From positions 62,001 through 126,000 of IMG/VR virus record IMGVR_UViG_3300029922_000014: a stretch of DNA of 64,000 bases; one strand, written 5' to 3'. The stretch is from a virus. Positions 8,350 through 62,128 of the stretch are shown here, one piece after another (position 1 is the first letter of the stretch; every line of letters starts with the position of its first letter). Under the pieces are notes generated by a model that was given only the letters and a program-made list of their open reading frames with translations, was not told the origin of the DNA and did not search any database. The position numbers and the translations under genes are program-made.

Positions 8350-8364
8350 TTGACACGATGTCAA
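8350..8364. promoter_or_regulatory. 15-bp operator dyad, perfect
   Basis: TTGACACGATGTCAA, the full consensus, directly after the stop of 8365-8673 and upstream of the membrane-protein gene. No -10 element at 15-16 nt on the minus strand. Confidence 0.75.
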
Positions 8365-10548: not shown

Positions 10549-11003
10549 TTCAATCTCTTACGCAGGCTGATGGACGCGGATTGGACGATCTCGGATTCAA
10601 CATCGCCTGCCATAGACCCGCCGGGATCGCGGTTGTAGTTGATCGTGAATCCGAGCGCTTGAACACGCTTCCAGGCATCTGCCAAAATGGCACGGGCGGT
10701 GATCTCCGGAGACGTGAAGTCGTAAATAAGCGCAACGCTCGCGTCGGCATTCATGAGGTGCCAGCGGTTTCCGTTATTGTCAGATTCCACGACATACCCC
10801 TTGAACGTCGCGTAACTTGGTTCTTTGCCGCCTTCCCGAAGGAGTGAGTACCCGTTGGACGTAACGCAGTCAACGGAGGCAGGAGCACGGAGACGTGGGA
10901 ACTTATCACTCAGCGCGTCGACGCGAATCAGACGCTCATTCTTCGCCTTGGCTTCTTCCAGGCGACGGCGGAAGGCTGCGATGGTGGAACGGATCATGGT
11001 CAT
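10545..11003 (-). CDS. Hypothetical protein with NYNRDPGGSM module
   Basis: 152 residues from ATG 11003 (ATGA overlap with the LuxR-type gene). Helical start (TIAAFRRRLEEAKAKNERLI), then a central domain and a C-terminal module AWKRVQALGFTINYNRDPGG followed by SMAGDVES. The same module recurs near the end of the 705-residue protein 19544-21661 and, more loosely, in 15121-15798 (ALGFDVES). The module's role is unknown; the recurrence implies a shared partner or a duplicated domain. Confidence 0.6.
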   Translation of the reverse strand: MTMIRSTIAAFRRRLEEAKAKNERLIRVDALSDKFPRLRAPASVDCVTSNGYSLLREGGKEPSYATFKGYVVESDNNGNRWHLMNADASVALIYDFTSPEITARAILADAWKRVQALGFTINYNRDPGGSMAGDVESEIVQSASISLRKRLK

Positions 11004-11209
11004 AAGATGAGCCCGGCGCTGGCCGCGTAGCGGGTGAGCCCGGCGGTGTTGTGCAGGTCGAGCTTCTGCATCAGGTGTTCGCGGTGCTTTTCCACCGTCT
11101 TGACGCTCATGCCAAACATCTCTGCGATCTCTTGCTTGGTCGCACCGTCGGCGGTCATGATCAAGACTTGGCGCTCGCGTTTGGTCAGGTAAGGGCGGGT
11201 CGTGGGCAT
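11000..11209 (-). CDS. LuxR/GerE-type HTH protein, domain alone
   Basis: 69 residues from MPTTRPYLTKRERQ, with GAAGG 5 nt upstream. Nearly the whole protein is a LuxR-family C-terminal DNA-binding domain: LTKRERQVLIMTADGATKQE, then IAEMFGMSVKTVEKHREHLM and QKLDLHNTAGLTRYA. The receiver or autoinducer domain is absent, as in stand-alone GerE-like regulators. It follows the operator at 11294-11308, so it may itself be controlled by the network. Likely a transcription factor; target unknown. Confidence 0.85.
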   Translation of the reverse strand: MPTTRPYLTKRERQVLIMTADGATKQEIAEMFGMSVKTVEKHREHLMQKLDLHNTAGLTRYAASAGLIL

Positions 11210-11281: not shown

Positions 11282-11308
11282 ACAACATGCCAACTGACAC
11301 GATGTCAA
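11282..11308 (-). promoter_or_regulatory. Operator dyad with weak promoter
   Basis: Dyad CTGACACGATGTCAA on the plus strand (11294-11308). On the minus strand TTGACA is followed at 15 nt by TGTTGT, a poor -10. A GCGTCATGCG box lies downstream at about 11251-11262 instead of upstream. It would lead to the LuxR-type gene with a roughly 70-nt leader. Confidence 0.5.
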
Positions 11309-12823: not shown

Positions 12824-13008
12824 GGTTCCGACTCCGTAGTAGGGTTCTTGCGCTCTTTGTCGAGGGCATCGAGACATTTGCGCAGGCGCTTGATGGCCTT
12901 CAGCGGGGTTTCATCCACGGCGCGCAGGATAACCATCCCGGTCCTGGTTTTCACTTCGACAGCGTTGCCGGCGACGCCGACCTTGAGGAATGGATCGTTG
13001 ATGATCAT
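12814..13008 (-). CDS. Small hypothetical protein
   Basis: 64 residues from MIINDPFLKV, with an ATGA overlap to the membrane-anchored XRE gene. Strand-rich start (VGVAGNAVEVKTRTGMVILR) followed by a basic helix (LKAIKRLRKCLDALDKERK). Coupling suggests a functional link with the XRE protein, for instance as a small modulator, but this is inference. Confidence 0.55.
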   Translation of the reverse strand: MIINDPFLKVGVAGNAVEVKTRTGMVILRAVDETPLKAIKRLRKCLDALDKERKNPTTESEPCP

Positions 13009-13565
13009 TGCGCACGCGGCGATTTCATGGAGGAAACGGACCGCGCGGCGATACTCTGACGATAGCGCGCTTCGATGATGACAGCCTCTTCCTGACCGAA
13101 CTCGTTGGCAAGGTCGTGGTATGCCGCACGCCCTGGACACTCCCATACGAGATCATTGTCGCTTTGTAGTGCGCTCGCCCTTTTTGGCGTCTGGTGCAAG
13201 AACTCCCGGGCCATTTCCCAAATGGTGTTGTATACCGCCTCTGCCATTTCCGCAGGGAGCGGGTCTGCCCGCAGATACGCGGTACAAATCTGCCAGAGTT
13301 CATCCGACGTGATGCCCCGGCGCCCCTCTTCGATCTCAACCAGAATCGGGAAGGACCAGCCAAGCTGATGCGCTGCCTGCGTAGTGGTCAATCCGCACTT
13401 CTCGCGAAGGTCGCGCAGCTTCATTCCGATCGCCTGCCAGTCGATTGTCTTCGACGGCGCGTCGCGCTTTACCCTGCGGTTCACGAGGTATGCGACGGTA
13501 GCACCACACGAATAGAGCACTGCCAAAACAGCAGCCAAAAACACGATGGCGGCAATGATTGACAT
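13005..13565 (-). CDS. Membrane-anchored XRE-type HTH protein
   Basis: 186 residues from MSIIAAIVFLAAV. Residues 1-27 form a hydrophobic span (IIAAIVFLAAVLAVLYSCGA). About residues 45-95 carry an XRE-type helix-turn-helix: MKLRDLREKCGLTTTQAAHQ, LGWSFPILVEIEEGRRGIT. A C-terminal helical region follows. The ATG lies inside the operator dyad 13559-13573, so the gene could be autoregulated. Membrane-tethered HTH regulators usually respond to envelope or redox signals. A candidate regulator of the operator network. Confidence 0.7.
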   Translation of the reverse strand: MSIIAAIVFLAAVLAVLYSCGATVAYLVNRRVKRDAPSKTIDWQAIGMKLRDLREKCGLTTTQAAHQLGWSFPILVEIEEGRRGITSDELWQICTAYLRADPLPAEMAEAVYNTIWEMAREFLHQTPKRASALQSDNDLVWECPGRAAYHDLANEFGQEEAVIIEARYRQSIAARSVSSMKSPRAQ

Positions 13566-13573
13566 CGTGTCAG
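13559..13573. promoter_or_regulatory. 15-bp operator dyad carrying stop and start codons
   Basis: TTGACATCGTGTCAG. On the minus strand its TGA ends gene 13570-13911 and its ATG starts the membrane-anchored XRE gene. No -10 at the usual distance. Same design as 2824-2838. Confidence 0.7.
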
Positions 13574-13911
13574 TCCTGACGGGGGTCGCGGATGGCGCGG
13601 TTCGGCAGCTTGCGGATACGCTCACGCTCGACGTAGTCGTCGATCAGGCCCCAGGCAGCATCTTCGGTTTCGGCCGCAGGGAAGCCGGTGGCAAAACCTT
13701 CAAGGCAGGTCTCTTCCAGGTGAACCCAGACCGGCCACCACCAGTTCCACTTCTCAGGAACGAAGAGCTTTTCGCTTTGGACGTGGACGACGCGGTATTT
13801 CGTGCGCCTGGACGAACCGCCGCAGGTTTCCGATCCGATCAGGATCCACAGGAGCCAGATCGGGCCGAGGATGATGAGAGCCAGCAGCACGATGTCGGTA
13901 GCCGGATTCAT
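13570..13911 (-). CDS. Small membrane protein with Trp-rich soluble part
   Basis: 113 residues: MNPATDIVLLALIILGPIWL begins one transmembrane helix (to about residue 26), followed by a soluble segment with EKWNWWWPVWVHLEETC. The ATG overlaps the upstream stop (ATGA) and its own stop lies in the operator. Together with the next gene (also single-span) it forms a membrane pair. Function unknown. Confidence 0.6.
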   Translation of the reverse strand: MNPATDIVLLALIILGPIWLLWILIGSETCGGSSRRTKYRVVHVQSEKLFVPEKWNWWWPVWVHLEETCLEGFATGFPAAETEDAAWGLIDDYVERERIRKLPNRAIRDPRQD

Positions 13912-17506: not shown

Positions 17507-17521
17507 TTGACATCGTGTCAG
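17507..17521. promoter_or_regulatory. 15-bp operator dyad
   Basis: TTGACATCGTGTCAG between the terminator at 17526-17556 and the promoter at 17446-17495. It would place a bound protein about 35 bp upstream of the -35. Confidence 0.7.
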
Positions 17522-17956: not shown

Positions 17957-18565
17957 TTACGCCGTGATCTTCAGCGCTTCGAGCAGCTTTTGCTTTTGTT
18001 CATCCCAGGACGGGAGCACGTTGCGCGCCTCCCACGTTCCGATGGACATGACGCTGCAACCGACGCGCTTGGCCAATTCCTCTTGCGTCAGTTTCAGGGC
18101 GTTGCGCGCTTCGAGCAGATTGAACGACGCAGGTTTATTGCCTGACGCCGCAACGGGCTTGACCGGATTCGGAGACGAAACCGTAGTGGTCACCGCCGCT
18201 TTCGGTGAGGCTGCTTTCGGGGGCGGCGTCGGGGGCCAGACTTTCGGATCCGTGCCCTTGGCAAGATTCTGCTGCGCCATCGCCTTGAACTTGGCAAGGG
18301 CCGCTTCATCGCGAAACAGGACCGTGCTACGATACGCCGTCGGCGCCAGGGCATTCAGTTCCTCGATGGTCAAGCCGGTCAGCTTGGACAACTCCGCTTG
18401 TACCACCTCGCGGATGCCGGGGTTGATTGGCCATTTGTCGCTGCGGAACATGTTGCTCAGCGTCGATGGCTTCAACCCTGCATCGGATGTGATTTTGTGC
18501 AGGGGAACACCGGTGGCGCGGCATAGCTCACGCAAGATGGCGGTCTGTGCTCGACGGTTGCTCAT
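17957..18565 (-). CDS. Transcriptional regulator with two HTH domains
   Basis: 202 residues. N-terminal HTH about residues 8-45 (ILRELCRATGVPLHKITSDA, GLKPSTLSNMFRSDKW), then a helical region (residues 46-100). A Pro/Ala linker (WPPTPPPKAASPKAAV) leads to a second, C-terminal XRE domain: ARNALKLTQEELAKRVGCSV, MSIGTWEARNVLPSW. Two DNA-binding domains joined by a flexible linker suit binding to dyads or to distant sites. It is the most repressor-like protein in the window and the first candidate for the operator network. No cleavage or peptidase domain, so not LexA/CI-type. Confidence 0.8.
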   Translation of the reverse strand: MSNRRAQTAILRELCRATGVPLHKITSDAGLKPSTLSNMFRSDKWPINPGIREVVQAELSKLTGLTIEELNALAPTAYRSTVLFRDEAALAKFKAMAQQNLAKGTDPKVWPPTPPPKAASPKAAVTTTVSSPNPVKPVAASGNKPASFNLLEARNALKLTQEELAKRVGCSVMSIGTWEARNVLPSWDEQKQKLLEALKITA

Positions 18566-21687: not shown

Positions 21688-21702
21688 TTGACGACGTGTC
21701 AG
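21688..21702. promoter_or_regulatory. Degenerate operator dyad
   Basis: TTGACGACGTGTCAG, two departures from consensus, between the stop of 21703-21867 and the start of the 705-residue gene. No -10 visible. Confidence 0.45.
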
Positions 21703-22971: not shown

Positions 22972-22986
22972 TTGACACGATGTCAA
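22972..22986. promoter_or_regulatory. 15-bp operator dyad, perfect
   Basis: TTGACACGATGTCAA, 20 bases upstream of the C39-like gene start on the minus strand, with no recognisable -10 between. Confidence 0.75.
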
Positions 22987-26747: not shown

Positions 26748-26813
26748 GGCGTTATGCGCTTATTCTCGCGCTATGCCATAAAGTCAATCCCCCAACAATT
26801 GACACGATGTCAA
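26748..26813 (-). promoter_or_regulatory. Operator dyad plus inverted-repeat boxes
   Basis: Perfect dyad TTGACACGATGTCAA at 26799-26813; its TGA ends gene 26810-27010. Downstream on the minus strand come TTGACT and two box-like sequences (GGCATAGCGCGAG and GCGCATAACGC) directly before ATG 26747. No -10 is convincing, so promoter assignment stays open. Confidence 0.55.
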
Positions 26814-29048: not shown

Positions 29049-29293
29049 GCGACGGCAGGAGGTGCAGGGTGAGGGATCCAAACAGAACCAGGACCGGGCT
29101 GCTTGGTCTCCCATATAGGTGGACCGTTAGGAATGCCCCACCCAGGGGAAAGCCCTAACGTCCCGTGGAAATAATACCGGAACTGCCACCAGCCGACAGC
29201 CGGATCCCACACCATGGCCATGTCTTCTGCCCGTGGTGTTTCTTCGGCGCAGGAACGCAGTTGCGCACGGAGTTTGTAGTCGGGCAGGCTCAT
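29045..29293 (-). CDS. Hypothetical protein
   Basis: 82 residues, ATGA overlap with the GroES-like gene. MSLPDYKLRAQLRSCAEETP, then Trp/Tyr-rich MVWDPAVGWWQFRYYFHGTL and a Pro-rich C-terminus. Co-translation with the co-chaperonin may be incidental. Confidence 0.5.
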   Translation of the reverse strand: MSLPDYKLRAQLRSCAEETPRAEDMAMVWDPAVGWWQFRYYFHGTLGLSPGWGIPNGPPIWETKQPGPGSVWIPHPAPPAVA

Positions 29294-29664
29294 GACCGCG
29301 TGACCTTATACGGACGATTGACGGTGGATTTGGAGGTGCGTTGAAACAGGCGTTCAAACAAACCATCGCCTCCTTCAGGGATGGCCACCCCCAGGACATA
29401 CACCTCGCGAATGATCAGCAGGTCCTGACCTTCCGCTTTGACGTCGTTGCCCTCGTATTGCTTGAAGTAGACGTAGTCGCCCACCTGCACTTCGACGGGG
29501 ATGCGGACGCCGCGCTTGTTGCGCAGGCCGGGACCGACGGCGATCACGGTGCCTTCGAGGGTGAGCGCATGGAGGTTATCCGGCGCCAGGATGCGGCCGA
29601 TGGTGATGACGTCGCGGGGCTTGGCGCGGCGGATGGCGAGGTTGTCGTCGATGAGAGTCAGCAT
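29290..29664 (-). CDS. GroES-like co-chaperonin
   Basis: 124 residues from MLTLIDDNLAIRRAKPRDVI with AAGGA 6 nt upstream. The GroES core is clear: LEGTVIAVGPGLRNKRGVRI, VEVQVGDYVYFKQYEGNDVK and QDLLIIREVYVLGVA, i.e. the G-T-V-x-A-V-G-x-G strand, the V-G-D turn and the terminal L-x-I-R-E. In T4 the GroES analogue gp31 partners host GroEL for capsid-protein folding; the same job is inferred here. The mobile loop lies about residues 18-35. No GroEL gene in the window. Confidence 0.8.
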   Translation of the reverse strand: MLTLIDDNLAIRRAKPRDVITIGRILAPDNLHALTLEGTVIAVGPGLRNKRGVRIPVEVQVGDYVYFKQYEGNDVKAEGQDLLIIREVYVLGVAIPEGGDGLFERLFQRTSKSTVNRPYKVTRS

Positions 29665-31643: not shown

Positions 31644-31658
31644 TTGACACGATGTCAG
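31644..31658. promoter_or_regulatory. 15-bp operator dyad
   Basis: TTGACACGATGTCAG between the stop of the pilin-like gene and the start of 31348-31629. No -10 on the minus strand. Confidence 0.7.
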
Positions 31659-31967
31659 TTAGCGATTCTCGACTTGCTCAGGCAGCGCTTCGATCTCGGC
31701 GGGAAAGAAGCGGATCTCCTGGAACCGCGGCGTGGCTTGCGGTCCGTTGTCGATGCGACAGATAAACACGTAACCGGAATCGGCCAGTTCCGACTTCATG
31801 ATCGTCGCTTGCGCGTGGCTGGACTTGATGACTACGACCTGCCCGACGGTAAATACGTGGCGGTTCCGTATCAGCACGATGGCCGGAATAATCATTCCGG
31901 CGATGATTGCGAGGATGCTGATGACGATCAGCAGTTCGATGATGGTGAAACCTTTGATCGTTTTCAC
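31659..31967 (-). CDS. Type IV pilin/pseudopilin-like protein
   Basis: 102 residues from GTG 31967 (GTGA overlap). The N-terminus MKTIKGFTIIELLIVISI and LAIIAGMIIPAI is a class III/type IV prepilin signal: short basic leader, Gly at the cleavage site, Phe+1, Glu+5, then a hydrophobic helix that serves as both membrane span and filament core. A small strand-rich head (VGQVVVIKSSHAQATIMKSE) follows. Host prepilin peptidase could process it. Encoded in a phage operon between unrelated genes, so perhaps a decoy minor pilin affecting pili or type II secretion; that is inference. Confidence 0.7.
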   Translation of the reverse strand: MKTIKGFTIIELLIVISILAIIAGMIIPAIVLIRNRHVFTVGQVVVIKSSHAQATIMKSELADSGYVFICRIDNGPQATPRFQEIRFFPAEIEALPEQVENR

Positions 31968-33425: not shown

Positions 33426-33440
33426 TTGACATCGTGTCAG
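33426..33440. promoter_or_regulatory. 15-bp operator dyad
   Basis: TTGACATCGTGTCAG; supplies the TGA stop of 33437-33772 and marks the upstream edge of the promoter array. Confidence 0.7.
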
Positions 33441-35175: not shown

Positions 35176-35190
35176 TTGACACGGTGTCAG
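35176..35190. promoter_or_regulatory. Operator dyad, one mismatch
   Basis: TTGACACGGTGTCAG; provides the TGA stop of 35187-35576. No -10 on the minus strand. Confidence 0.6.
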
Positions 35191-35641: not shown

Positions 35642-35720
35642 AGTATGTTCAGAATCCAAAGTCGGAATCAGGCACGGCGCTGTTGTCCTAAGTTCACGTA
35701 TTCACCGTGCAAATAGGTTC
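35600..35720 (-). ncRNA. Possible omega RNA / right end of the TnpB element
   Basis: TnpB proteins use a guide RNA transcribed across the 3' end of tnpB and the element's right end. The 90 bases after the stop (35694 downward) hold no gene and run into the promoter at 35590. Exact ends and structure cannot be fixed by eye; location is inference from the family. Confidence 0.3.
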
Positions 35721-36887
35721 CTGCTTCACAGACGGTAGTTTCGTCCCGGTCTTACGACCAGGGCCAGAGCTTCCATCTCCACAGGCGTTTATTCCCGCGC
35801 AACTCGCGGTATGGATATTTTTTGCGGCATTCAGATCACGGTCGAGCGTGAAGCCACATGCAGTACAGGAAAAGACCCGCTCTGCGAGCGGAAGGGAATC
35901 TTTCTTGTGACCACAGCTTGAACAGGTCTTTGACGAAGGAAACCAGCGGTCGACGACAAACACCGATTGCGCTTTGTATTCCAGTTGACGTCGAATCTCA
36001 CTGAATCCCACGTCATTCAAGGCGCGTGAAAGATGGCGGTTTGCCATCATGCCTTTCACGTTGAGGTCTTCGAGACCGACAGAACCATACTGCTTGGCTA
36101 TCGCCGTAGTGGTCTTGTGCTGCCAGTCTTTTCTGATTTGAGCTATCCGCCAATGCTGACGACTGAGACGAGCAACGGCTTTCTTCCGGTTGCTGGATCC
36201 TTTGACTTTGCGAGAGACGAAACGAGAGAGACGCTTCAAACGTTCGAGAGCAGACTTGAGCGGTTTGGGAGACTGAAAGGTAGTGCCGTCGGAGAGAACC
36301 AGAGCAGTCTTCAATCCGAGGTCGATGCCGACAGCGGGCTTTGACACGATGTCAGTTGGCGGATCGGGAAGTTCGACTTGAACGGAAAGCCACCAGCGTT
36401 GACCGACAAAAGACAAAACAGCGGAGAGTGGTTTGCCGTCGAAGCGGAGTTCTTCGTGGGTATCAACCCAACCAATATTCGGTAGTTTAACAGCTTTACC
36501 GGCGAACGAAAATGTTCCAGGTCCGTTGTCGAGACGTGCTGATTGCTTGGATTTATGTTTGCTCTTGAAGTCGGGCGGGGACATCTTTGGTCCCTTGCGC
36601 TTGCCTGAGCAGGAGTCGAAAAAGTTTTGGTAGGCGGTGCCGAGGTTGATGATCGCCTGCTGAACAACGCGCTTTGGCACATCCAACATCCAAGGGAACT
36701 CTTCACGCTTGATCGTATTCAAACTCTTCCGCAACGATCCGTCGTTCGGCTTGTACCCAGCGGCAAACTGAGCACGCCAGTGACATAATGCCCAGTTAAA
36801 GGCAAAGCGCGCCGCTCCGACGCACTGCCGGAAGAATGCTTCCTGCTTTCGCGTGGGGGCAAGCTTGATGATGTGGGCGCGGATCAC
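35694..36887 (-). CDS. tnpB: TnpB-type RNA-guided nuclease (IS200/IS605 family)
   Basis: 397 residues from GTG 36887 (MIRAHIIKLAPTRKQEAFFR); a GTG at 36911 is an alternative. RuvC-like catalytic residues are intact: VGIDLGLKTALVLSDG (Asp), GLEDLNVKGMMANRH (Glu) and CGFTLDRDLNAAKNI (Asp). The zinc finger CSSCGHKKDS...CTAC is complete. Typical TnpB C-terminus (GSSGPGRKTGTKLPSVKQEP). No tnpA nearby, so a non-autonomous or domesticated element. A perfect operator dyad lies within the gene just before the first RuvC motif. Confidence 0.9.
   Translation of the reverse strand: MIRAHIIKLAPTRKQEAFFRQCVGAARFAFNWALCHWRAQFAAGYKPNDGSLRKSLNTIKREEFPWMLDVPKRVVQQAIINLGTAYQNFFDSCSGKRKGPKMSPPDFKSKHKSKQSARLDNGPGTFSFAGKAVKLPNIGWVDTHEELRFDGKPLSAVLSFVGQRWWLSVQVELPDPPTDIVSKPAVGIDLGLKTALVLSDGTTFQSPKPLKSALERLKRLSRFVSRKVKGSSNRKKAVARLSRQHWRIAQIRKDWQHKTTTAIAKQYGSVGLEDLNVKGMMANRHLSRALNDVGFSEIRRQLEYKAQSVFVVDRWFPSSKTCSSCGHKKDSLPLAERVFSCTACGFTLDRDLNAAKNIHTASCAGINACGDGSSGPGRKTGTKLPSVKQEPICTVNT
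36341..36355. promoter_or_regulatory. Operator dyad inside tnpB
   Basis: TTGACACGATGTCAG within the coding sequence, encoding T-D-I-V-S just before the first catalytic motif. The only near-perfect copy found inside a gene. Confidence 0.6.
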
Positions 36888-37689: not shown

Positions 37690-38043
37690 TCAATCCTTAA
37701 CCGTGATGGTCATGTGCCGTCGGCCCCACTGCACAGCTTCGGCGTGGGTTTTGAATCTGAGGTCGATGTGAACGATTCCGCGCTTGGCATCCTTGCGCAT
37801 GGCGCCGCCGGTATCATCGACCTTTGCCCAATTGCCGTTGTTGTAACCGGTGACTTTGATCAGGGTTCCGTAGGGCAGGATGGTCGGGGCTGCGGCGATG
37901 CCGGTGGGATGATCGTCGGTATCGACATCGGTTGAGGTGATGCCGGAGAAGTCTGAACCACAGTAGCCGGTGACGATCGCCTGGAGTTCGACGGCTGGGG
38001 CGGTGGCGCACAGGACGAGCAGAGCGACGAGCTTGATTGACAC
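37690..38043 (-). CDS. Secreted 3D-domain protein
   Basis: 117 residues from GTG 38043 (MSIKLVALLVLCATAPAVEL), a signal peptide with likely cleavage near residue 18-22. The rest is a 3D domain (double-psi beta barrel): VTGYCGSDFSG, YGTLIKVTGYNNGNWAKVDD, TGGAMRKDAKRGIVHIDLRF and QWGRRHMTITV, with the conserved Asp residues in VDDTGG and HIDL. Such domains occur in MltA/RlpA-type peptidoglycan enzymes, so it may loosen the cell wall. The start codon is inside the operator dyad. Confidence 0.75.
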   Translation of the reverse strand: MSIKLVALLVLCATAPAVELQAIVTGYCGSDFSGITSTDVDTDDHPTGIAAAPTILPYGTLIKVTGYNNGNWAKVDDTGGAMRKDAKRGIVHIDLRFKTHAEAVQWGRRHMTITVKD

Positions 38044-38051
38044 GATGTCAG
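38037..38051. promoter_or_regulatory. 15-bp operator dyad carrying stop and start codons
   Basis: TTGACACGATGTCAG. On the minus strand its TGA ends the preceding frame (38048) and its GTG starts the 3D-domain gene. No -10. Confidence 0.7.
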
Positions 38052-39634: not shown

Positions 39635-39715
39635 GGTCCTTTGGACCGCTGGTTGGTTGTTGTACCCGCATCATGGTGCGGACTGACATCGTGTCAATTG
39701 CTGTTTTCCGCGTTA
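39635..39715 (-). promoter_or_regulatory. Promoter/operator with leader hairpin
   Basis: Box TTCCGCATAACGCGGAAAA (about 39715-39700), operator dyad 39683-39697 whose TTGACA is the -35 (39697-39692), 16-nt spacer, CATGAT (39675-39670), then leader hairpin GGTCC-AAA-GGACC (39647-39635) and AAGGAG. The dyad's TGA also ends 39694-40040. Confidence 0.75.
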
Positions 39716-40051: not shown

Positions 40052-40130
40052 GGTCCATTGGACCGTTGGCGTTATGGCTGCATCCTGACATGGATTGACA
40101 CGATGTCAATCGAGACTTTCCGCGTAACGC
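40052..40130 (-). promoter_or_regulatory. Promoter/operator with leader hairpin
   Basis: Box around 40115-40130, perfect dyad 40095-40109 with TTGACA as -35, 16-nt spacer, CAGGAT (40087-40082), hairpin GGTCC-AAT-GGACC (40064-40052) and CAGGAG before ATG 40040. Confidence 0.7.
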
Positions 40131-41157: not shown

Positions 41158-44100
41158 TTCTTGCCCATGGTCCCAAGCGACGTCTTCATGCCGGTATGGT
41201 GTTCGATGGTGCGGTGCAGGTCGTCGGCGTAGACGCCGTCCGCGGAATGCTTCACGGTGTACTTGCCGCCGCTGATCTTGCCAAAGTCCACCTTGTAGGT
41301 GTCGTCGGGCTTGAGGTGCACCTTGATGTGGTTGACGTTCTTGGCGTTCTTGCCGATCTTGAACTGGTAGGATGGCATGCCGGTGCCGGGAACGTGGGTC
41401 TCCTTGCCGTCCTCACCTTTGGTAGTGTAGCCCTGCCCGTGGTCGACCATCATGTTCTTGGCGCCGAGCATGAAGTGCGCCTTGGCACCGATCTGCTTGT
41501 GGATCGCGTGCGCCTTCTCCAGGCCTTCCTTGGCGGCCTTCTCGTTGATGGCTTCGGTAAGGGATTCTTCCTTCTTGCCGAAACCGGGGGCGGCGCGGAC
41601 GCCGTGCTTCTCGCGAACCTTGGCTCGGGCTTCCGGGTCCTGCTTGTGGCCCATGTGCCCCTTGTCGGGCGTGCTGCCGCCCCACTTGCCGCTGTTGATG
41701 TTCTTGAGGATGTCGGAGTACTTGATCTCCATCTTCCCCGGCTTGTGGCCATCCTTGATCGCGTAGGTAGAGACGACGAGCGTCGCGCGGTCCTTATCCA
41801 GGTCGCGGGACTTGATCGTCCACCAGACGTTCTTGATGACTACGGACTTGTTCGGAACGAAGTACTTCCGCAGGTCCTTGTCGTTGAGTTTGCCTTCGGT
41901 CAGCGATTCGTTGTGCAGGTGGATGTGGACGTGCTTGGCCTTGTCCTCGGGGCCTTCGTCTTCGTCGTCGTCGTCTTCATCACCCTTGCTGTTGGCACCG
42001 CCTTCCTCTTCTTCTTCGTCCTCTTCGTCGGGAACGTCGTCGGTACCGGTAGCGCCGGGAGCCGGCGGCGGGACAACGGTCGGGTTGGGCAGTTCGTTGG
42101 CGCCCTGCGCACCAGCACGGGTCATCATCTGTTCGCCCATCTTCGGGACGGAGATGTAGCCGGTGGGGCTGGCCTTCCATTCGTTGGGCTTGAGCCCAAA
42201 GCGCTCTTCGATGCGGACTTCCATCGCGTCGATGTCGCAGTCGGCGCACAGGAGCATATCGTAGTAGGTCTGAACGTCGGCCACGGTGAAGTTCTTGGGA
42301 TCGACACCCTCCGCCAGGATCTTGGCCTTCGCGTCGTCGAGCCGCGTCTTGGCTTCCGTGGTCAGGTTCTTGGACAGCCCAACATACAGCTTCAGCCGCG
42401 CGGCGGCGGTCTTGGCGTTGGGTGACGATTCCAGGAGCCCCTTGGCGATCGACGCGGCAGAGCCCTCAAAGAAGTTCTCCGGCGGGGTCCAAGATTCGCC
42501 CAGTTGGACGAAGTTCTTGCCCTTCATCGCCTGCATCGCGTTGCCCTTGGTCGTGGCGCGCACGCAGGAGACAACCAATTGCCCGTCGGCGTCCATGGTC
42601 TGCTGCATCAGCGATTCGGCTTGATCCATGGTCAGAGCGTTGTTGTTCACCAATTCCCAGCCGTCCTTGGTCTTCTGGCAGATCCAGTAGTCGCAGGAGG
42701 CTTTGCCAGCGGCTTCGGTAGTGGCCTTCTTCGCGAAGCCATGCTCATCGTGGTGGACCTTGTCGAACGTCTTGGCCCGGAGCTTCCCCATGGCTTCGCT
42801 GTGATCCTTGGCCTTGATGTATGCGGCGAAGTGCGGCTTACCGTGAGGGTAGGTCTTCTCGTTGTTTGGACCGGTGTGCGGCGTCAGCGCGTTGTCGATC
42901 GTGCGCTCCAATTCGCCCTTGGTCTTCTTGCCCTGGCCCAGAATGGGCTCATGCATCGTGGTGCCCTTGGCGCCCCGACCGATCACAGGGTAGTGCATGG
43001 TTTCGTCGATTGACGCGATGTCAGTGGCCTCAGTGATGCTCTTCACATGGACGCGGGAATCGTTGTGGACCGGATCATGCGACTGCACCGACGTCGCAAA
43101 CATCTCGGCGTGTTTCTTCGCACCGAACTTGAAGGCGTGATGCTGTTCCTTCGTGTCGCCGCGCGTGCTGGTTCCAACATGCTCACCGGACCGATGACCC
43201 ATGGCACCGGCGGCCTTCTTCAAATGATCGACCGTGAACGGCTTGCCCGACGAATGCTTGGCACTGTGGGCCACCAGCACGTAGTGAGCTTCGTCGATGC
43301 CTTCGTTGCGGCGCTTGAGCATGTTGCGGGCGGTGCCGCGCTTGCGCTTGCCGAGCATGCCGTACTTGGACGGGAAGCTGGCACGGACGGGAGCGAAGGA
43401 GGCAGAGGCGAATCCGCCTACGGTGCCGGAGCGGGTCATCTCGTCGATGTAGTCGAGGAATGATCCGGGAAGCTCCACCTCTGCGCCCTCAGCATTGAGG
43501 AAGATCAGGTCACCGTTGACGTCTTCCGACATGGAACAGGTGTCGCCGGCCGGGGAGATGACGGTCACACCTTCGGTGCCGATGACAAGCTTCCAGGTCT
43601 GGTCTGATTCGACGGATTCCTTGACGGAAAAGTCGCCCATCAGAAAGTTCATGATGTCGACGTGGGCGGCGGTCGAATCGCCATTGTGCTTGGTCAGGAT
43701 CTTGTCGATCCCACTACGGTAGAGAACCATGTCGCCTTCGTCGACGTAGCGGAACACATTCTCGTCATCGCGGATGGTCACGGAGACGACGCCGGGTTCG
43801 ATCTCGACTACTTCCCAGGCCGGCTGCTCCAGCGATTCGCGGACCTTGGTCGCGGCGTCAGCGGGCTGTTCGTCGGCGTTGGGGTCCTTGATCTTCTTCG
43901 GCGGGACGGGCTGCTTGCCGAGCGGGGTACATTCGATGATCGACACATCGGAGACGCGGTCGTTGGCGATGTCGGTGGTGCCGGCGGTCAGGGACAGCTT
44001 GTATTTGAGGAACTGTGCTTCCCCCAGCTTGCCGGTGTCGTCGCGGGTCAGGGCGCCCTCGAAGATGGCGGTGAAGCTCTTGGGGCCGACTACGGTCTCG

Positions 44101-44984: not shown

Positions 44985-45950
44985 CTAACCCTCCATGAGA
45001 CAGGTGTCAGCGAAGTCCACAGCGAGTTTGACAACATCGGCTTCACGTGCAATCACACGCTGCCATTCCAGCGGCAGCGCCTCTGCACCATGGATCCATC
45101 CGGACAGCGCGCCGGTAATCGCCGCCGTCGTATCAGTGTCAGACCCTAAGTTCACTGCGGCCAGGACGCTATGCGCAAATGCTTCGGTACCAACCAGACC
45201 CAAGGTCTCTGTCTGGTGCAAGCACCACACTGCGGATTCCAGCGAATGGATGCAGTACCCTCCGCTCTGAATGTCCCTGCGCGCGGCAGCGAAAATCGAA
45301 CCATCCTCAAGGCGAGCAAACTCGCGCTTATCCTCGGTCCCGAGCAACATGCCGCCGACAGCCATGGCCAACGCTTCGCGAATGCTGCGCCCGTTAGCCA
45401 GCGGCGAGAGCATGCGCGCATGCGTAACACACGTATAGGTCGAACGGTCGTGGGCGTGCGTCAGGGCGGACCCCTCGCGGGCAAAACGTTCGATATGGTG
45501 CGGATTGCTGAAAAGGGCATACACGTTCAAGGGCATGCAACGCATCAAGCTGCCATTGCCGTTGCTGCTCAGACTGGTGCCGCCGCACTGACTGGCAGGA
45601 AAACCGGCTTTGCGCTTGGCAATCGCTGCGCGCGTCGCATTTCCACAGTCGAAGTTCACACCGTGGGCGGTCCAAGTCGCATGGTCATACCAGGAAACAA
45701 ACGAATCCATGACGGCTTCGAGGTCCCAGCCCTTGCGGACCAGAACGTCAGCGGCGGCCAGGGTCATGGAGGAGTCGTCAGACCACGTCCCAACCGGTTG
45801 ATTCCAGGTGCCGTGTCCACGCATCTCTTTAATCGGATCCGCATCGCGTGCTTCACGGGTGCTGAACTCTGCATAAACCCCAAGAGCGTCGGAAATGCAG
45901 GTGCCGATGATCGAACCGATGATGCGCGAGCGAAGGGTGGGGGTCGACAT
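44985..45950 (-). CDS. ADP-ribosylglycohydrolase (DraG family)
   Basis: 321 residues from MSTPTLRSRIIGSIIGTCIS. Family motifs are complete: ISDALGVYAEF, GTWSDDSSMTLAAADVL (metal-binding S/T-D-D), SSNGNGSLMRCMP and NLGSDTDTTAAITGALSGWI (the G-x-D-x-D-T second metal site). These enzymes remove ADP-ribose from proteins, DNA or small molecules. Placed behind a strong promoter cassette, it may counter host ADP-ribosylation-based defence or reset phage-made modifications; target not visible. Confidence 0.85.
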   Translation of the reverse strand: MSTPTLRSRIIGSIIGTCISDALGVYAEFSTREARDADPIKEMRGHGTWNQPVGTWSDDSSMTLAAADVLVRKGWDLEAVMDSFVSWYDHATWTAHGVNFDCGNATRAAIAKRKAGFPASQCGGTSLSSNGNGSLMRCMPLNVYALFSNPHHIERFAREGSALTHAHDRSTYTCVTHARMLSPLANGRSIREALAMAVGGMLLGTEDKREFARLEDGSIFAAARRDIQSGGYCIHSLESAVWCLHQTETLGLVGTEAFAHSVLAAVNLGSDTDTTAAITGALSGWIHGAEALPLEWQRVIAREADVVKLAVDFADTCLMEG

Positions 45951-45961
45951 GGCAGGCTCCA

Positions 45962-46040
45962 GGTCCGGGGGACCGTTGGGGTATGGCTGCATCATGGCGG
46001 GATTGACACGATGTCAATCGCTGTTTTCCGCGTCATGCGG
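45962..46040 (-). promoter_or_regulatory. Promoter/operator with leader hairpin
   Basis: Box TTTCCGCATGACGCGGAAAA (46040-46021), perfect dyad 46003-46017 with -35 TTGACA (46017-46012), 15-nt spacer, CATGAT (45996-45991), leader hairpin GGTCC-CCC-GGACC (45974-45962), TGGAG, then ATG 45950. Confidence 0.8.
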
Positions 46041-49456: not shown

Positions 49457-49530
49457 GGTCCATTGGACCGTTGGTGTGATGAGCGAAGCATATGCGGACT
49501 GACATCGTGTCAATGCCTCTTTTCCGCATA
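49457..49530 (-). promoter_or_regulatory. Promoter/operator with leader hairpin
   Basis: Box TTTACGCGCTATGCGGAAAA (about 49536-49517), dyad 49499-49513 with -35 TTGACA, 15-nt spacer, TATGCT (49492-49487), hairpin GGTCC-AAT-GGACC (49469-49457), AAGGAG, ATG 49444. Confidence 0.8.
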
Positions 49531-50945: not shown

Positions 50946-51025
50946 GGTCCTTTGGACCGTTGGTGTGATGAGCAAAGCGTATACAGACTGACACGATGTC
51001 AATCAAGTTTCTGCATAGCGCGGCA
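50946..51025 (-). promoter_or_regulatory. Promoter/operator with leader hairpin
   Basis: Box GCCGCGCTATGCAGAAA (about 51025-51007), dyad 50988-51002 with -35 TTGACA, 15-nt spacer, TACGCT (50981-50976), hairpin GGTCC-AAA-GGACC (50958-50946), AAGGAG, ATG 50933. It lies directly after the HNH stop. Confidence 0.8.
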
Positions 51026-51589: not shown

Positions 51590-51670
51590 GGTCCAGGGGA
51601 CCGCTGGTGATGGGGGGTCATCATGCACGGACTGACACGATGTCAATCGCTGTTTTCCGCGTCACGCGGG
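51590..51670 (-). promoter_or_regulatory. Promoter/operator with leader hairpin
   Basis: Box CCCGCGTGACGCGGAAAA (about 51669-51651), dyad 51632-51646 with -35 TTGACA, 15-nt spacer, CATGAT (51625-51620), hairpin GGTCC-CCT-GGACC (51602-51590), CAGGAG, ATG 51578. Confidence 0.8.
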
Positions 51671-55271: not shown

Positions 55272-55298
55272 AGCATGCGGCAATTGACATCGTGTCAG
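55272..55298 (-). promoter_or_regulatory. Promoter/operator before the portal gene
   Basis: Dyad 55284-55298 with CTGACA as the -35-like half, 15-nt spacer, CATGCT (55277-55272). No upstream box and no leader hairpin, so probably a weaker version. Lies between terminase and portal genes. Confidence 0.6.
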
Positions 55299-57434: not shown

Positions 57435-58124
57435 TCATTCTACTACTTTCGCGGCTTTGATCTCGCGGGCAGCCTGCCTGACCGCCCGTGGCTTCTGCAT
57501 CTTCTGCTGAATCGCCTTGGCCAAGTCGGCAGCGCGGGGTCCGAGCTTTTCGATCAGGTTGCGCACACGTTCACGCGCCAGGGCTTGTTCCTTCGGATCC
57601 AGGCCGCCGGTATCTTCCACGTCGATGCGTGCGCTGGCAATCTCCGCCGGCTTCATGAGCACGTCGAGGTTGCTGTCGGCACGGATGTCGATGCGGACCT
57701 TGGATTCTATGCCAAGGCACTCCATGACCTTTTCCGCGGCGCGAAGCTGCGTTGGGGTGATCCCAGCATCGCGCGTCAGCGGATTGCCGTGGCGGTCCTG
57801 CATGATCCTGCCTTCAGGATCGCGGATGTATGTCGGTCCGGCCATGGCCCGGTTGAGGGTAGACACCGCAGTCGGCGCCAGCCGCGCCAGCCCGCGCTTG
57901 GTGCTGAACTGGACACGGGATTGGATCGCCTCCTGATTGTCGAACTCGTGCTTGAGCAAGTCGAGTTGCGTCCGCACCTCAGGACGATTGAGGAAGTCGC
58001 TGACCTGCGTGATGGTCCAGCCAAGCTCGACAAGAACAGACGCCCCACGCGAAAAGAGTTCGACGACTACGCCTCGCTCTTCCGGTGAAAGCTGCGCCTG
58101 TGCAATGGCGACTTCGGACGACAT
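57435..58124 (-). CDS. Probable terminase small subunit
   Basis: 229 residues, directly upstream of and touching the large terminase gene. N-terminal region GASVLVELGWTITQVSDFLN, RPEVRTQLDLLKHEFDNQEA resembles the HTH/helical part of small terminases; central LTRDAGITPTQLRAAEKVME and a long charged C-terminal helix (KAIQQKMQKPRAVRQAAREI). Assigned mostly from position; sequence identity with known families is not visible by eye. Confidence 0.6.
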   Translation of the reverse strand: MSSEVAIAQAQLSPEERGVVVELFSRGASVLVELGWTITQVSDFLNRPEVRTQLDLLKHEFDNQEAIQSRVQFSTKRGLARLAPTAVSTLNRAMAGPTYIRDPEGRIMQDRHGNPLTRDAGITPTQLRAAEKVMECLGIESKVRIDIRADSNLDVLMKPAEIASARIDVEDTGGLDPKEQALARERVRNLIEKLGPRAADLAKAIQQKMQKPRAVRQAAREIKAAKVVE

Positions 58125-58525
58125 CAGATTTTCTTTTCCTTGAGCGCTTGCTTGAGGCTGGTGGCCGGGATGAACCGAACATACCGACGCGCGGGAACAC
58201 GCCGCAGGGTATCGCCGCCGGCCTCGCGATAGTTGGTCGGCTTCTTGACGTACGGTTCGAGCGTGCCGACGTTGACCAGTGACACGGTGCGACCGGTCTG
58301 GATGGCCTCCGTGATCACGCCGAGCAATGCGGTCCAGGCAGCGGTCGCTTGCAGCTTGGTGCAGGCCTTCTTGCCCAGGGTATGGCGCAGGACCTTTTCG
58401 AGGTGCCCACTACCGACCCGGCCGCCGACGGGGATGTCCGTCAGAAGGTCAGGGGCATCAGTGTCGGTGTCGGCATCAGCATCGTCCGCCACTGCGGTAT
58501 CGACTTTGTCTTCGTCTTCGTTCAT
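58124..58525 (-). CDS. HU-like DNA-binding protein with acidic tail
   Basis: 133 residues. The first 30 are highly acidic (DADADTDTDAPDLLTDIPVG). The rest matches HU: AAWTALLGVITEAIQTGRTV, SLVNVGTLEPYVKKPTNYRE, VPARRYVRFIPATSLKQALK, including the terminal P-A-R-x-x-V-x-F-x-P-x-x-x-L-K helix. TGATG overlap with the small terminase. Likely aids genome compaction or terminase site recognition. Confidence 0.75.
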   Translation of the reverse strand: MNEDEDKVDTAVADDADADTDTDAPDLLTDIPVGGRVGSGHLEKVLRHTLGKKACTKLQATAAWTALLGVITEAIQTGRTVSLVNVGTLEPYVKKPTNYREAGGDTLRRVPARRYVRFIPATSLKQALKEKKI

Positions 58526-59037: not shown

Positions 59038-60927
59038 TCAGTGTGCCGCGGAGAGCGTAGTGGTTTTCGCGCCATGCGCAACAACAACGGAAGAGCCGCC
59101 GCGGTCGACCACAGAGAACACGACATCCGCCGCAGCTTTTATGCGTTCGTCGTGGGTCACCATGATCACCGGGCAGGTCGCTGCGGTTTCTTTCAGAATG
59201 TCGATCACGTAGGAGCAACCCTGACGATCGAGCCCGTCAAAAATCTCGTCGACGAAAAGCTGGTTGAATGGCTTGACGGTCCGGGACGCCAGGAGGTCCC
59301 GGAAAGCGCAGAGAAGCGAAACATCGAACCGGCGCTTCTGCCCCTTGCTCGCGCCGTGGTACAGGTCGGTCTTGCCGGGAATGACGGCCTCGACGGACAG
59401 TTCCTCGCGGTAGACATCGCGCTTGGTCTTGAGTTCCCGGGTAGCATGGAGGCGCAGGATCGCCCCGGGTCCGAGGAGACGTTGCGCGTAGGCCGTGGCC
59501 CTGCGGTTGATCTCAGGTATCTCGGATTCGATCAGGAAGCTCTTGATCCCGGAGTTGCCAAATGCTTCGATCCAGAACAGGAGTTGATCCTGGCGCCCGC
59601 GCAGTTCGGCCTGTTCTTCGGTCAGCTTGAGGAGCTTGTTGCGCCCAATGGCGATCTCGGATTCAAGTGCAGTCACAGCGGCGCGGTCCTGGGACATGCG
59701 AGACTTCAACGATGCCACGCGTTCGCGCAGGGTGGCAGCTTCGGCCCGGAGGCGGCTCAACTCTTCGTCTTTGTGGGCAATTGCAGCCGCGTAAAGGCCT
59801 GCCCAGCGATCATTCGGTTGCAGCACGTCCGCCAGGGAGTCCTGCGCCGTTCTGGCCTCTGTGAGCCTCCGTTTGGCATCTGCAAGCTGGGGCGCCAAAG
59901 CTTCGATCGAATCACGCAGGGCGCGGACGTTCATGTCCGCGTGGCTGGCTTTGACTTCCTGCTCGCAAGCGGGACAGCGACTGCCGGTCATGTTCGCCCA
60001 CGACGCCATCTCTTTCTTCTGCGCACTGAGCCTGACTTCGGTGCGAGCGATCTCACCAGAGATGGTGGAGATGATGTCGGTGTGCGCACTGCGCTGCGCG
60101 TTGATGGCGGCCTGCTTGACCGCGACTTCACGGCGGCGAATGGTGATGGCAGCGGCGGCTTTTTGCTGACGCTCGACAAGACGAGCACGATCGACGGTCG
60201 TTCGGATTGACATCGCGTTAGTCCGACGAAGCCGAGCCTGCGCACGGATGAAGTCGAAGGACACTTCGCTATTGTCCTGGTTCGCCTTCTCCTGAAGGAC
60301 TTGCAGGCGCACGTTCTGATTCTCCAGCACCGCAGTCACCGACGCGATCTCCGTGTCGATGCGGTCGAGGTTCGGCTGGATCATCTTGGAGTCAGAAGCG
60401 GCGAGCTTGCGCGCATCCTCATACAGTTCGAGGCACAGCATCTTGTCAAAGATGCGTTTACGGTCGCTGTCGTCGGCGGAGAAGAACGACTTCACCTCTT
60501 CGCGCACGCCGAAAGCGACCACGTTCATGAAGCTCAGGTAGTCGACACCGATCATCTGCACGATCGCGGCGTCGGTCTGCGCGTTGGTTCCGCGAGTGAC
60601 TTCAACGTCATCGACGAAGAGGCGCACGTTGTCGCGGTGCTTCGGGTGCTTGCGGTAACGGATGCAGCGGATCCTGGTTTTTCCGTCGGTGATGTTGACG
60701 GACACATACGTACCGCCCGTGGAGTCGTGCCGGATGATGTTGTCGCCGTCGTACTTCGGCCGAATACACTTACTATAGAGTGAAAAACTAATACCGTCGA
60801 ACAGGGCACTTTTGCCCATGCCGTTATCACCCTCAATGAGGGTCAATCCAGTCTTCGCAAAGTCGAAGCTCGTCTGCTCGAAGAACATGAAGTTGCCGTA
60901 GTCGACCAACCCAATGACAAAGCTCAC
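59038..60927 (-). CDS. Rad50/SbcC-like recombination endonuclease subunit (T4 gp46-like)
   Basis: 629 residues from GTG 60927 (GTGA overlap). Walker A GDNGMGKSALF (33-43), coiled-coil arms with zinc hook CPACEQEV (318-325), and Walker B QLFVDEIFDGLDRQG (D560, E561) with a following VTHDER switch His. Size near T4 gp46 (560). Forms an ATP-controlled complex with the Mre11-like protein upstream to resect ends for recombination-dependent replication. A degenerate operator dyad (60207-60221) lies inside. Confidence 0.92.
   Translation of the reverse strand: MSFVIGLVDYGNFMFFEQTSFDFAKTGLTLIEGDNGMGKSALFDGISFSLYSKCIRPKYDGDNIIRHDSTGGTYVSVNITDGKTRIRCIRYRKHPKHRDNVRLFVDDVEVTRGTNAQTDAAIVQMIGVDYLSFMNVVAFGVREEVKSFFSADDSDRKRIFDKMLCLELYEDARKLAASDSKMIQPNLDRIDTEIASVTAVLENQNVRLQVLQEKANQDNSEVSFDFIRAQARLRRTNAMSIRTTVDRARLVERQQKAAAAITIRRREVAVKQAAINAQRSAHTDIISTISGEIARTEVRLSAQKKEMASWANMTGSRCPACEQEVKASHADMNVRALRDSIEALAPQLADAKRRLTEARTAQDSLADVLQPNDRWAGLYAAAIAHKDEELSRLRAEAATLRERVASLKSRMSQDRAAVTALESEIAIGRNKLLKLTEEQAELRGRQDQLLFWIEAFGNSGIKSFLIESEIPEINRRATAYAQRLLGPGAILRLHATRELKTKRDVYREELSVEAVIPGKTDLYHGASKGQKRRFDVSLLCAFRDLLASRTVKPFNQLFVDEIFDGLDRQGCSYVIDILKETAATCPVIMVTHDERIKAAADVVFSVVDRGGSSVVVAHGAKTTTLSAAH
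60207..60221. promoter_or_regulatory. Degenerate dyad inside the gp46-like gene
   Basis: TTGACATCGCGTTAG, two mismatches. Possibly chance. Confidence 0.25.
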
Positions 60928-61928
60928 GACAGCCCCTTCGCTCTCTCCAGCAGTTCATTGCCGAGTTTGGACAGGTGCCCACCCGGATCAGGCAGATCGC
61001 GGTATTTCAGATAGGCGGTGATGATGTCGCCGTGGGTGTGGCTGGTGCGGATGTCGATCCGCGGCGGGGCTCCTGGCGCTTCGGAATAGCTCGACCTGAC
61101 GATGCGGGCATGTTCGACCTTGGCCTTGATCTTCAGGTAGGTCGCGTGGTCCGGAGCGTCGATCCAGATGAAGTCGTTTTCGCCAACCTCCGGGACCGCG
61201 AAGGAGTCGGTGATCTTATAGAACCGCGGGCTGACGGTGTTCTCGACGAATGACAACGTGTCAGTCTCGGTATCGAGGATGCGCACCCCGCGCTTCCCGC
61301 CGCAGTCACCAAAGTCCAATTGCATCGGGGAGCCGATGTAGTGGATGTTGTCGGTATCCTTCGGTGCGTGCACGTCACCCAGCAGAACACGCTTCCAGGA
61401 CCGGGGCTTGAGCGCTTCGATCGGCAGAGTTTTGGCGGACTTGTGGACGGCGCCGTCGATCAGGGCATGCGCCAGCAGGTAGTCGCAATGCGATTCCTCG
61501 GCGGCCTGGGCGATGTCTTCGGCCAGTTGGGTGTTGTCGTCCGTCCAGGGCATGAGCATGAACGGCGGCATCATGAATGGCTGATCAATCACCTCACCGC
61601 TGCCGAGAAAAATCTGCATCGAATTGATGCCGGGCGTACGCAGGTAAGAATCGTGGTTCCCGACGATGAAGCACAGATCGACGCTTTGCGATGTTTCATG
61701 CACGACGCGGCAGAGGCGGTCCAGCACCGACATGTCGATGCTGGTGCGGGAGTCGATGAAGTCCCCGACCACGAAGATACGCTCGCACTTCTGGTCGATC
61801 GCGATTTTGGTCATCCACCGCCAGCAGTCGAGCATATCGGTCAAACGCGTCGAAACGCCGTCGACGCCGATCGTCGAAAGACCGGCGTAGGTATCGAACT
61901 GCCAGTCGGCGGTGAGCAGAACTTTCAC
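60924..61928 (-). CDS. Mre11/SbcD-like recombination nuclease subunit (T4 gp47-like)
   Basis: 334 residues from GTG 61928, sharing GTGA with the upstream stop (longer start rejected). Phosphoesterase motifs: KVLLTADWQFDTY (D-x-H position reads D-W-Q), FVVGDFIDSRTS, FIVGNHDSYLRTPG, LLAHALIDGAV and LLGDVHAPKD. Motif I Gln in place of His is typical of some phage homologues. Works with the gp46-like subunit. Confidence 0.9.
   Translation of the reverse strand: MKVLLTADWQFDTYAGLSTIGVDGVSTRLTDMLDCWRWMTKIAIDQKCERIFVVGDFIDSRTSIDMSVLDRLCRVVHETSQSVDLCFIVGNHDSYLRTPGINSMQIFLGSGEVIDQPFMMPPFMLMPWTDDNTQLAEDIAQAAEESHCDYLLAHALIDGAVHKSAKTLPIEALKPRSWKRVLLGDVHAPKDTDNIHYIGSPMQLDFGDCGGKRGVRILDTETDTLSFVENTVSPRFYKITDSFAVPEVGENDFIWIDAPDHATYLKIKAKVEHARIVRSSYSEAPGAPPRIDIRTSHTHGDIITAYLKYRDLPDPGGHLSKLGNELLERAKGLS
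61250..61264. promoter_or_regulatory. Degenerate dyad inside the gp47-like gene
   Basis: ATGACAACGTGTCAG, two mismatches. Possibly chance. Confidence 0.25.
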
Positions 61929-62128
61929 GGCACCACCACAACAGTCAGGTTCCGCGCCATCCGCATCCAACGCCCATCAGCGCTCAACACATCGCGACGC
62001 AGGTCGGTAGGCAGATAACCTGGATACTCCGCGCTGCCGCGGACCGTGCGAACCGGCGGAAGAATCCTGCCATTTTTTGCCACGACACGAAACTTGTCGC
62101 CGGGCTTGAGGTCATTGAGCGCCGTCAT
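61925..62128 (-). CDS. Small hypothetical protein
   Basis: 67 residues from MTALNDLKPGDKFRVVAKNG (ATGA overlap). PGDKFRVV and LPPVRTVRGSAEYPGYLPTD suggest a small beta barrel. Coupled on both sides between the MazG-like and gp47-like genes. Unrecognised. Confidence 0.6.
   Translation of the reverse strand: MTALNDLKPGDKFRVVAKNGRILPPVRTVRGSAEYPGYLPTDLRRDVLSADGRWMRMARNLTVVVVP

Follow-up and report, generated by a model that had tools for sequence, protein, structure and literature searches.

A genome-wide palindrome array and its candidate ParB-like binder in a tailed phage

Introduction

Several systems are known in which one DNA-binding protein acts from short sites spread along a replicon. 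KorB acts as a long-range repressor: it is a sliding clamp that depends on CTP and that silences promoters after moving in from distal sites (PMC11790492), and, to judge from a title cited in PMC5577506, KorB of plasmid RK2 has 12 dispersed OB operators. In Cluster A mycobacteriophages, including L5 and Trixie, short repressor sites (stoperators), as many as about 30, are dispersed over the genome (PMC6550527, PMC9283540). Proteins of the ParB fold that lack a ParA partner are, in addition, widespread in phages (PMC12704722).

Here we describe a dispersed array of palindromes in a tailed phage, starting from a window of 64,000 nucleotides (positions 62001-126000 of a record of 150,436 bp) and extending to the whole record. 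KorB of plasmid RK2 and the mycobacteriophage stoperators are the nearest known analogues of the array. As with RK2 KorB, a member of the ParB family, a ParB-fold protein occurs together with short dispersed palindromes, some of them at promoters (here predicted); the differences are that the phage has 55 sites, an over-regular spacing, no ParA that we could find and a different palindrome, and that it is a virus. As with stoperators, short sites are scattered over a phage genome; however, stoperators lack symmetry, mostly follow the direction of transcription and are the targets of an immunity repressor, whereas the sites described here are palindromes, for which we identified no repressor of that kind. 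The phage-plasmid N15 likewise has a ParB-family protein, SopB, whose centromere sites are separate inverted repeats (IR1-4; PMC7205306), but these number four, SopB has a SopA partner, and the system serves partition of a linear prophage. With ParB-parS and Noc the phage shares a protein with ParB_N and ParB helix-turn-helix (HTH) domains and a palindromic target (here a candidate), and Noc, too, is an orphan (PMC12704722); unlike those canonical systems, the protein is phage-encoded, has another candidate target sequence and no ParA, and carries a GHRR variant and an insertion in ENxxR. Dispersed operators were already known (KorB/RK2, stoperators, N15 SopB); what sets this phage apart is an orphan ParB that apparently goes with an evenly spaced series of sites along the whole genome, and in the open-access literature we found no account of phage ParB sites arrayed in this way.

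Results

Gene 13005-13565 is predicted to encode a membrane-anchored XRE protein

The open reading frame at 13005-13565 (minus strand) encodes 186 aa from an ATG at 13565, 4 nt past the stop of the upstream gene (13570-13911, minus strand), which encodes a 113-aa protein that also has an N-terminal hydrophobic helix and whose stop overlaps the dyad treated below. The assignment combines the reading frame with domain matches, a structural model and coding score. Residues 3-29 (13479-13559, minus strand) are strongly hydrophobic (best 19-residue Kyte-Doolittle mean 2.59, at residue 3) and form a predicted transmembrane helix; a hydropathy of at least 1.9 is reached by 16 of the 181 predicted genes of the record. 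The RRVKR that follows the helix points to an N-out/C-in topology, which would place the DNA-binding part in the cytoplasm. Residues 46-101 (13263-13430, minus strand) match the XRE-type HTH families HTH_31 (E 1.3e-8) and HTH_3 (E 4.7e-6), both above the curated cut-offs. A single-sequence AlphaFold2 model has a single helix spanning residues 3-34 and, over residues 43-98, an XRE fold of five helices, with pLDDT of about 84-94 across blocks 41-80 and low confidence at the C-terminus. Because codons 1-47 have a coding score in their own frame and in none of the other five, the hydrophobic helix is read as part of the gene, and the long form is preferred over an internal start at Met48, which would yield a soluble product.

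In its HTH domain the protein resembles XRE/HTH_3 regulators, from which it differs in the predicted transmembrane helix preceding the HTH. No close relative was found in the collections searched; the relatives there were remote and matched the HTH alone, and Foldseek with the model returned only generic XRE folds (best E 7e-3). Hydropathy, domain matches and model agree, at the level of prediction, with the claim of an earlier note on this DNA that an N-terminal helix is fused to an XRE HTH. We infer that the gene probably specifies a small protein of the inner membrane whose XRE DNA-binding domain lies in the cytoplasm.

The dyad at the XRE start codon belongs to a set of 55 dispersed copies

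The gene was also said to start within a dyad, and the palindrome TGACACGATGTCA (13560-13572, minus-strand reading) does contain its ATG. Lone dyads with 5-bp arms occur in the window at chance level (about 11 per kb), and what lifts the dyad at the XRE gene far above chance is solely the recurrence of its 13-mer across the genome: allowing at most one mismatch, the 13-mer occurs at 23 sites in the window, against 2.2 expected, and the whole record holds 56 matches, against 2 for a reversed control pattern. The record ends in a 127-bp direct terminal repeat, which indicates that the 150-kb genome is probably complete; with this repeat removed, 55 distinct sites remain. The full site is GAYTGACA-NNN-TGTCARTC (19 bp), its centre occurs in both orientations, and beyond it nothing is conserved across all copies. 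The dyad is thus one of 55 dispersed copies and not a private operator, which speaks against the autoregulation through it that the earlier note had envisaged.

The full copy at the XRE gene occupies 13557-13575. Further copies in the window lie at 580-592, 8351-8363, 11295-11307, 17508-17520, 21689-21701 (1 mismatch), 22973-22985, 26800-26812, 31645-31657, 33427-33439, 35177-35189 and 55285-55297. Two further reading frames start inside copies, with an ATG within the dyad at 2825-2837 and a GTG start within the dyad at 38038-38050.

Array sites are evenly spaced and concentrated in front of genes

Gene calls and gene starts, comprising 181 predicted proteins, are our own codon-usage calls and not those of a published caller; on these calls almost all genes of the record lie on the minus strand, 75% of array site centres are intergenic, as against 9.9% of the genome that is non-coding, and 55% of sites lie at most 100 nt upstream of a start, as against 12% of random positions. 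Sites are about 2.7 kb apart, with a spacing coefficient of variation (CV) of 0.535 versus 0.97 for random placement (0 of 5000 simulations as low), and are also more evenly spaced than random gene starts. In long genes, sites fall inside the coding sequence, as at 36342-36354 within tnpB, at 43011-43023 (1 mismatch) within a gene of 1072 aa and, likewise within coding sequence, at 61251-61263. The tnpB gene (35694-36887), which carries its array palindrome in the coding sequence, encodes an IS605 OrfB/TnpB-like protein.

At 9 of the 41 intergenic sites TAnnnT follows TTGACA by exactly 15 nt in the direction of transcription, whereas any different offset, or the opposite strand, gives TAnnnT at 0-1 of the intergenic sites. 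These promoter-like units (TTGACA-N15-TAnnnT) are consensus matches and are predicted only. A standard promoter scan found none, because that scan demands a spacing of 16-18 nt. About ten intergenic sites have a TTTCCGC/GCGGAAA palindrome approximately 20 nt upstream together with a GGTCC/GGACC stem adjoining the ribosome-binding site. Within the window, the upstream palindrome and the downstream stem both accompany the copies at 39684-39696, 46004-46016, 49500-49512 (with TTGACA-N15-TATGCT), 50989-51001 (with TTGACA-N15-TACGCT) and 51633-51645, and the downstream stem accompanies the copy at 40096-40108. A modular intergenic cassette, composed of a TTTCCGCRTNAYGCGGAAA palindrome, the array palindrome and the GGTCC/GGACC ribosome-binding-site stem, can be recognized at 39684, 46004, 49500, 50989, 51633 and other positions. 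The copy at the XRE gene has no -10-like TAnnnT 15 nt downstream and neither the upstream palindrome nor the GGTCC/GGACC stem that flank promoter-type copies, and therefore falls into a non-promoter class, a further point against autoregulation through it.

Other genes of the window include a phage-encoded GroES-like chaperonin (Cpn10; 29290-29664), a protein whose start, MKTIKGFTIIELLIVISIL, by eye resembles a type IV prepilin signal (31659-31967), an ADP-ribosylglycohydrolase-like protein (44985-45995) and an SbcC-like plus SbcD-like nuclease pair (59038-61970).

The phage encodes an orphan ParB-like protein

Outside the window, at record positions 128145-129335, lies a ParB-family gene whose product matches ParB_N (the CTPase-fold domain; E 1e-14), HTH_ParB (PF17762; E 6e-7, above cut-off) and TIGR00180 (over cut-off), and whose best solved relative is Caulobacter ParB (E 1e-16); no KorB-named family was among its ParB domain and profile matches. 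No second ParB_N protein was found in the record. A search of the record for a ParA-type ATPase gave no AAA_31 match (14 of 14 controls positive), which makes classical partition unlikely. The protein has GHRR where canonical ParBs, and the ParBs of the two relatives described below, have GERR, and its ENxxR motif carries a clade insertion, so that its CTP switch may differ.

A relative retains the array and the ParB-like protein and has no XRE protein

Close relatives at the nucleotide level were absent from the phage collection searched, and viral_contigs gave only a fragment of the same virus. A search with a ParB profile, in which the palindrome was not used, retrieved a distant relative, the 156-kb contig G022, that contains 17 TGACA-CGC-TGTCA sites with CCAG/CTGG flanks and none of the control pattern. 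Its sites have a spacing CV of 0.40 (0 of 5000 simulations as low), and 15 of the 17 are intergenic. Comparison of all 181 predicted proteins of the phage with G022 showed a conserved core in which the ParB-like protein (38% identity over 308 aa, E 4e-47) and an HU-like protein are kept, and no match there for the XRE, double-HTH, MerR-like or GerE-like proteins. A second relative, the 19.6-kb fragment G023 (ParB 31%), has 5 GGACA-N3-TGTCC sites versus 0.035 expected; this case is only suggestive, because 5 of 5 sites lie in coding sequence. Neither G022 nor G023 contains an HTH_3 protein. At 12 loci with more remote ParBs the core was never present in more than one copy. The phage and these relatives are uncultivated contigs, and the co-occurrence of array and ParB is drawn from one full and one partial relative of common ancestry.

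Relatives chosen by TerL that encode a ParB_N protein (G007, G009, G011, G015 and G017) were considered and set aside, their genomes being without the array; the five ParB_N proteins seem, by eye, to belong to a different, shorter family. One of these TerL relatives, G011 (the contig of L050), carries a different, unrelated 18-bp palindrome, TGCGTCCATATGGACGCA, in eight copies scattered from 10969 to 163420.

G022 keeps the array and the ParB-like protein and has no XRE/HTH_3 protein, which makes ParB, and not XRE, the best candidate for the binder; ParB is, moreover, the only recognized sequence-specific DNA-binding family found to be common to both phages with a full array. We conclude that the 55-site array, the palindrome over the XRE start included, is probably bound by the orphan ParB-like protein of the phage, as comparison of the genomes suggests.

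Alternative explanations of the array

The array could instead consist of stoperator-like operators of another regulator, a reading that we regard as rather unlikely. Dispersed repressor sites are known from Cluster A mycobacteriophages (PMC6550527, PMC9283540). A subset of the array sites overlaps -35-like boxes, and the record encodes a GerE-like protein (a stand-alone 69-aa GerE/LuxR-type HTH protein, 11000-11209), a MerR-like protein (1384-1956), a double-HTH protein (17957-18565) and an HU-like protein (58124-58525), to which a host factor may be added as a candidate; but G022 lacks homologues of the GerE-like, MerR-like and double-HTH proteins. A 19-bp palindrome is not the kind of target that proteins of the HU/IHF type would be expected to single out, which weighs against the HU-like protein; nevertheless, since much of the core genome is common with G022, another conserved protein, HU-like or without a recognized domain, could be the binder. 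A host transcription factor was rejected as the source of the site: in a collection of 84,980 species the exact 18-bp form gave only isolated single matches in nine unrelated genomes, and the site is therefore not a common host operator.

Instead of protein operators, the copies might be REP-like cassettes, promoter or intergenic, that were multiplied by duplication, or sites for packaging or replication, but this is improbable. The flanking hairpins and GGTCC/GGACC ribosome-binding-site stem common to about ten intergenic copies speak for such a reading; yet most copies have only the palindrome in common and their flanks are not conserved, copies lie inside the coding sequence of long genes, the spacing is over-regular, and G022 has the same core with a different flank.

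Finally, it is highly improbable that the XRE protein, acting at the dyad from the membrane, is its own repressor and perhaps that of the whole array. One palindrome does span its start codon, and short palindromes are the usual targets of XRE proteins, but the copy there is without promoter elements and mid-operon, with the upstream stop 4 nt away, array copies contain the starts of two further reading frames, and in G022 the array is present although HTH_3 proteins, and any homologue of the XRE gene, are missing. The last point led us to reject XRE as master repressor of the array, and it also counts against the autoregulation first suggested.

Discussion

If the ParB-like protein is the binder, then, by analogy with ParB and KorB, ParB dimers would be loaded at every palindrome, undergo nucleotide-dependent closure and then slide; with approximately 2.7 kb between sites, the clamps would be able to cover the phage chromosome in full. 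At copies that include a promoter-like TTGACA (-35 box), bound ParB would block or modulate the promoter; at other copies, including the one over the XRE ribosome-binding site and start, the palindrome would be a loading or roadblock site. On this analogy we infer that ParB loading may serve transcription control, coating of the phage DNA, or both. More tentatively, and as a possibility that we do not regard as the expected outcome, there may be large tailed phages, forming one lineage, that combine an orphan ParB with loading sites set at regular intervals over the genome, so that sliding clamps coat the entire chromosome, acting at once as a global transcription regulator and as a nucleoid-like means of packaging or protection.

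The locus also carries a caution for the reading of phage genomes, namely that a dyad beside a regulator gene need not be the operator of that regulator. The ParA-less ParB proteins of phages are mostly unexplained; this phage and G022 give one of them a concrete candidate target, so that its function becomes directly testable. The array suggests that ParB-type clamps can organize or regulate a whole viral genome.
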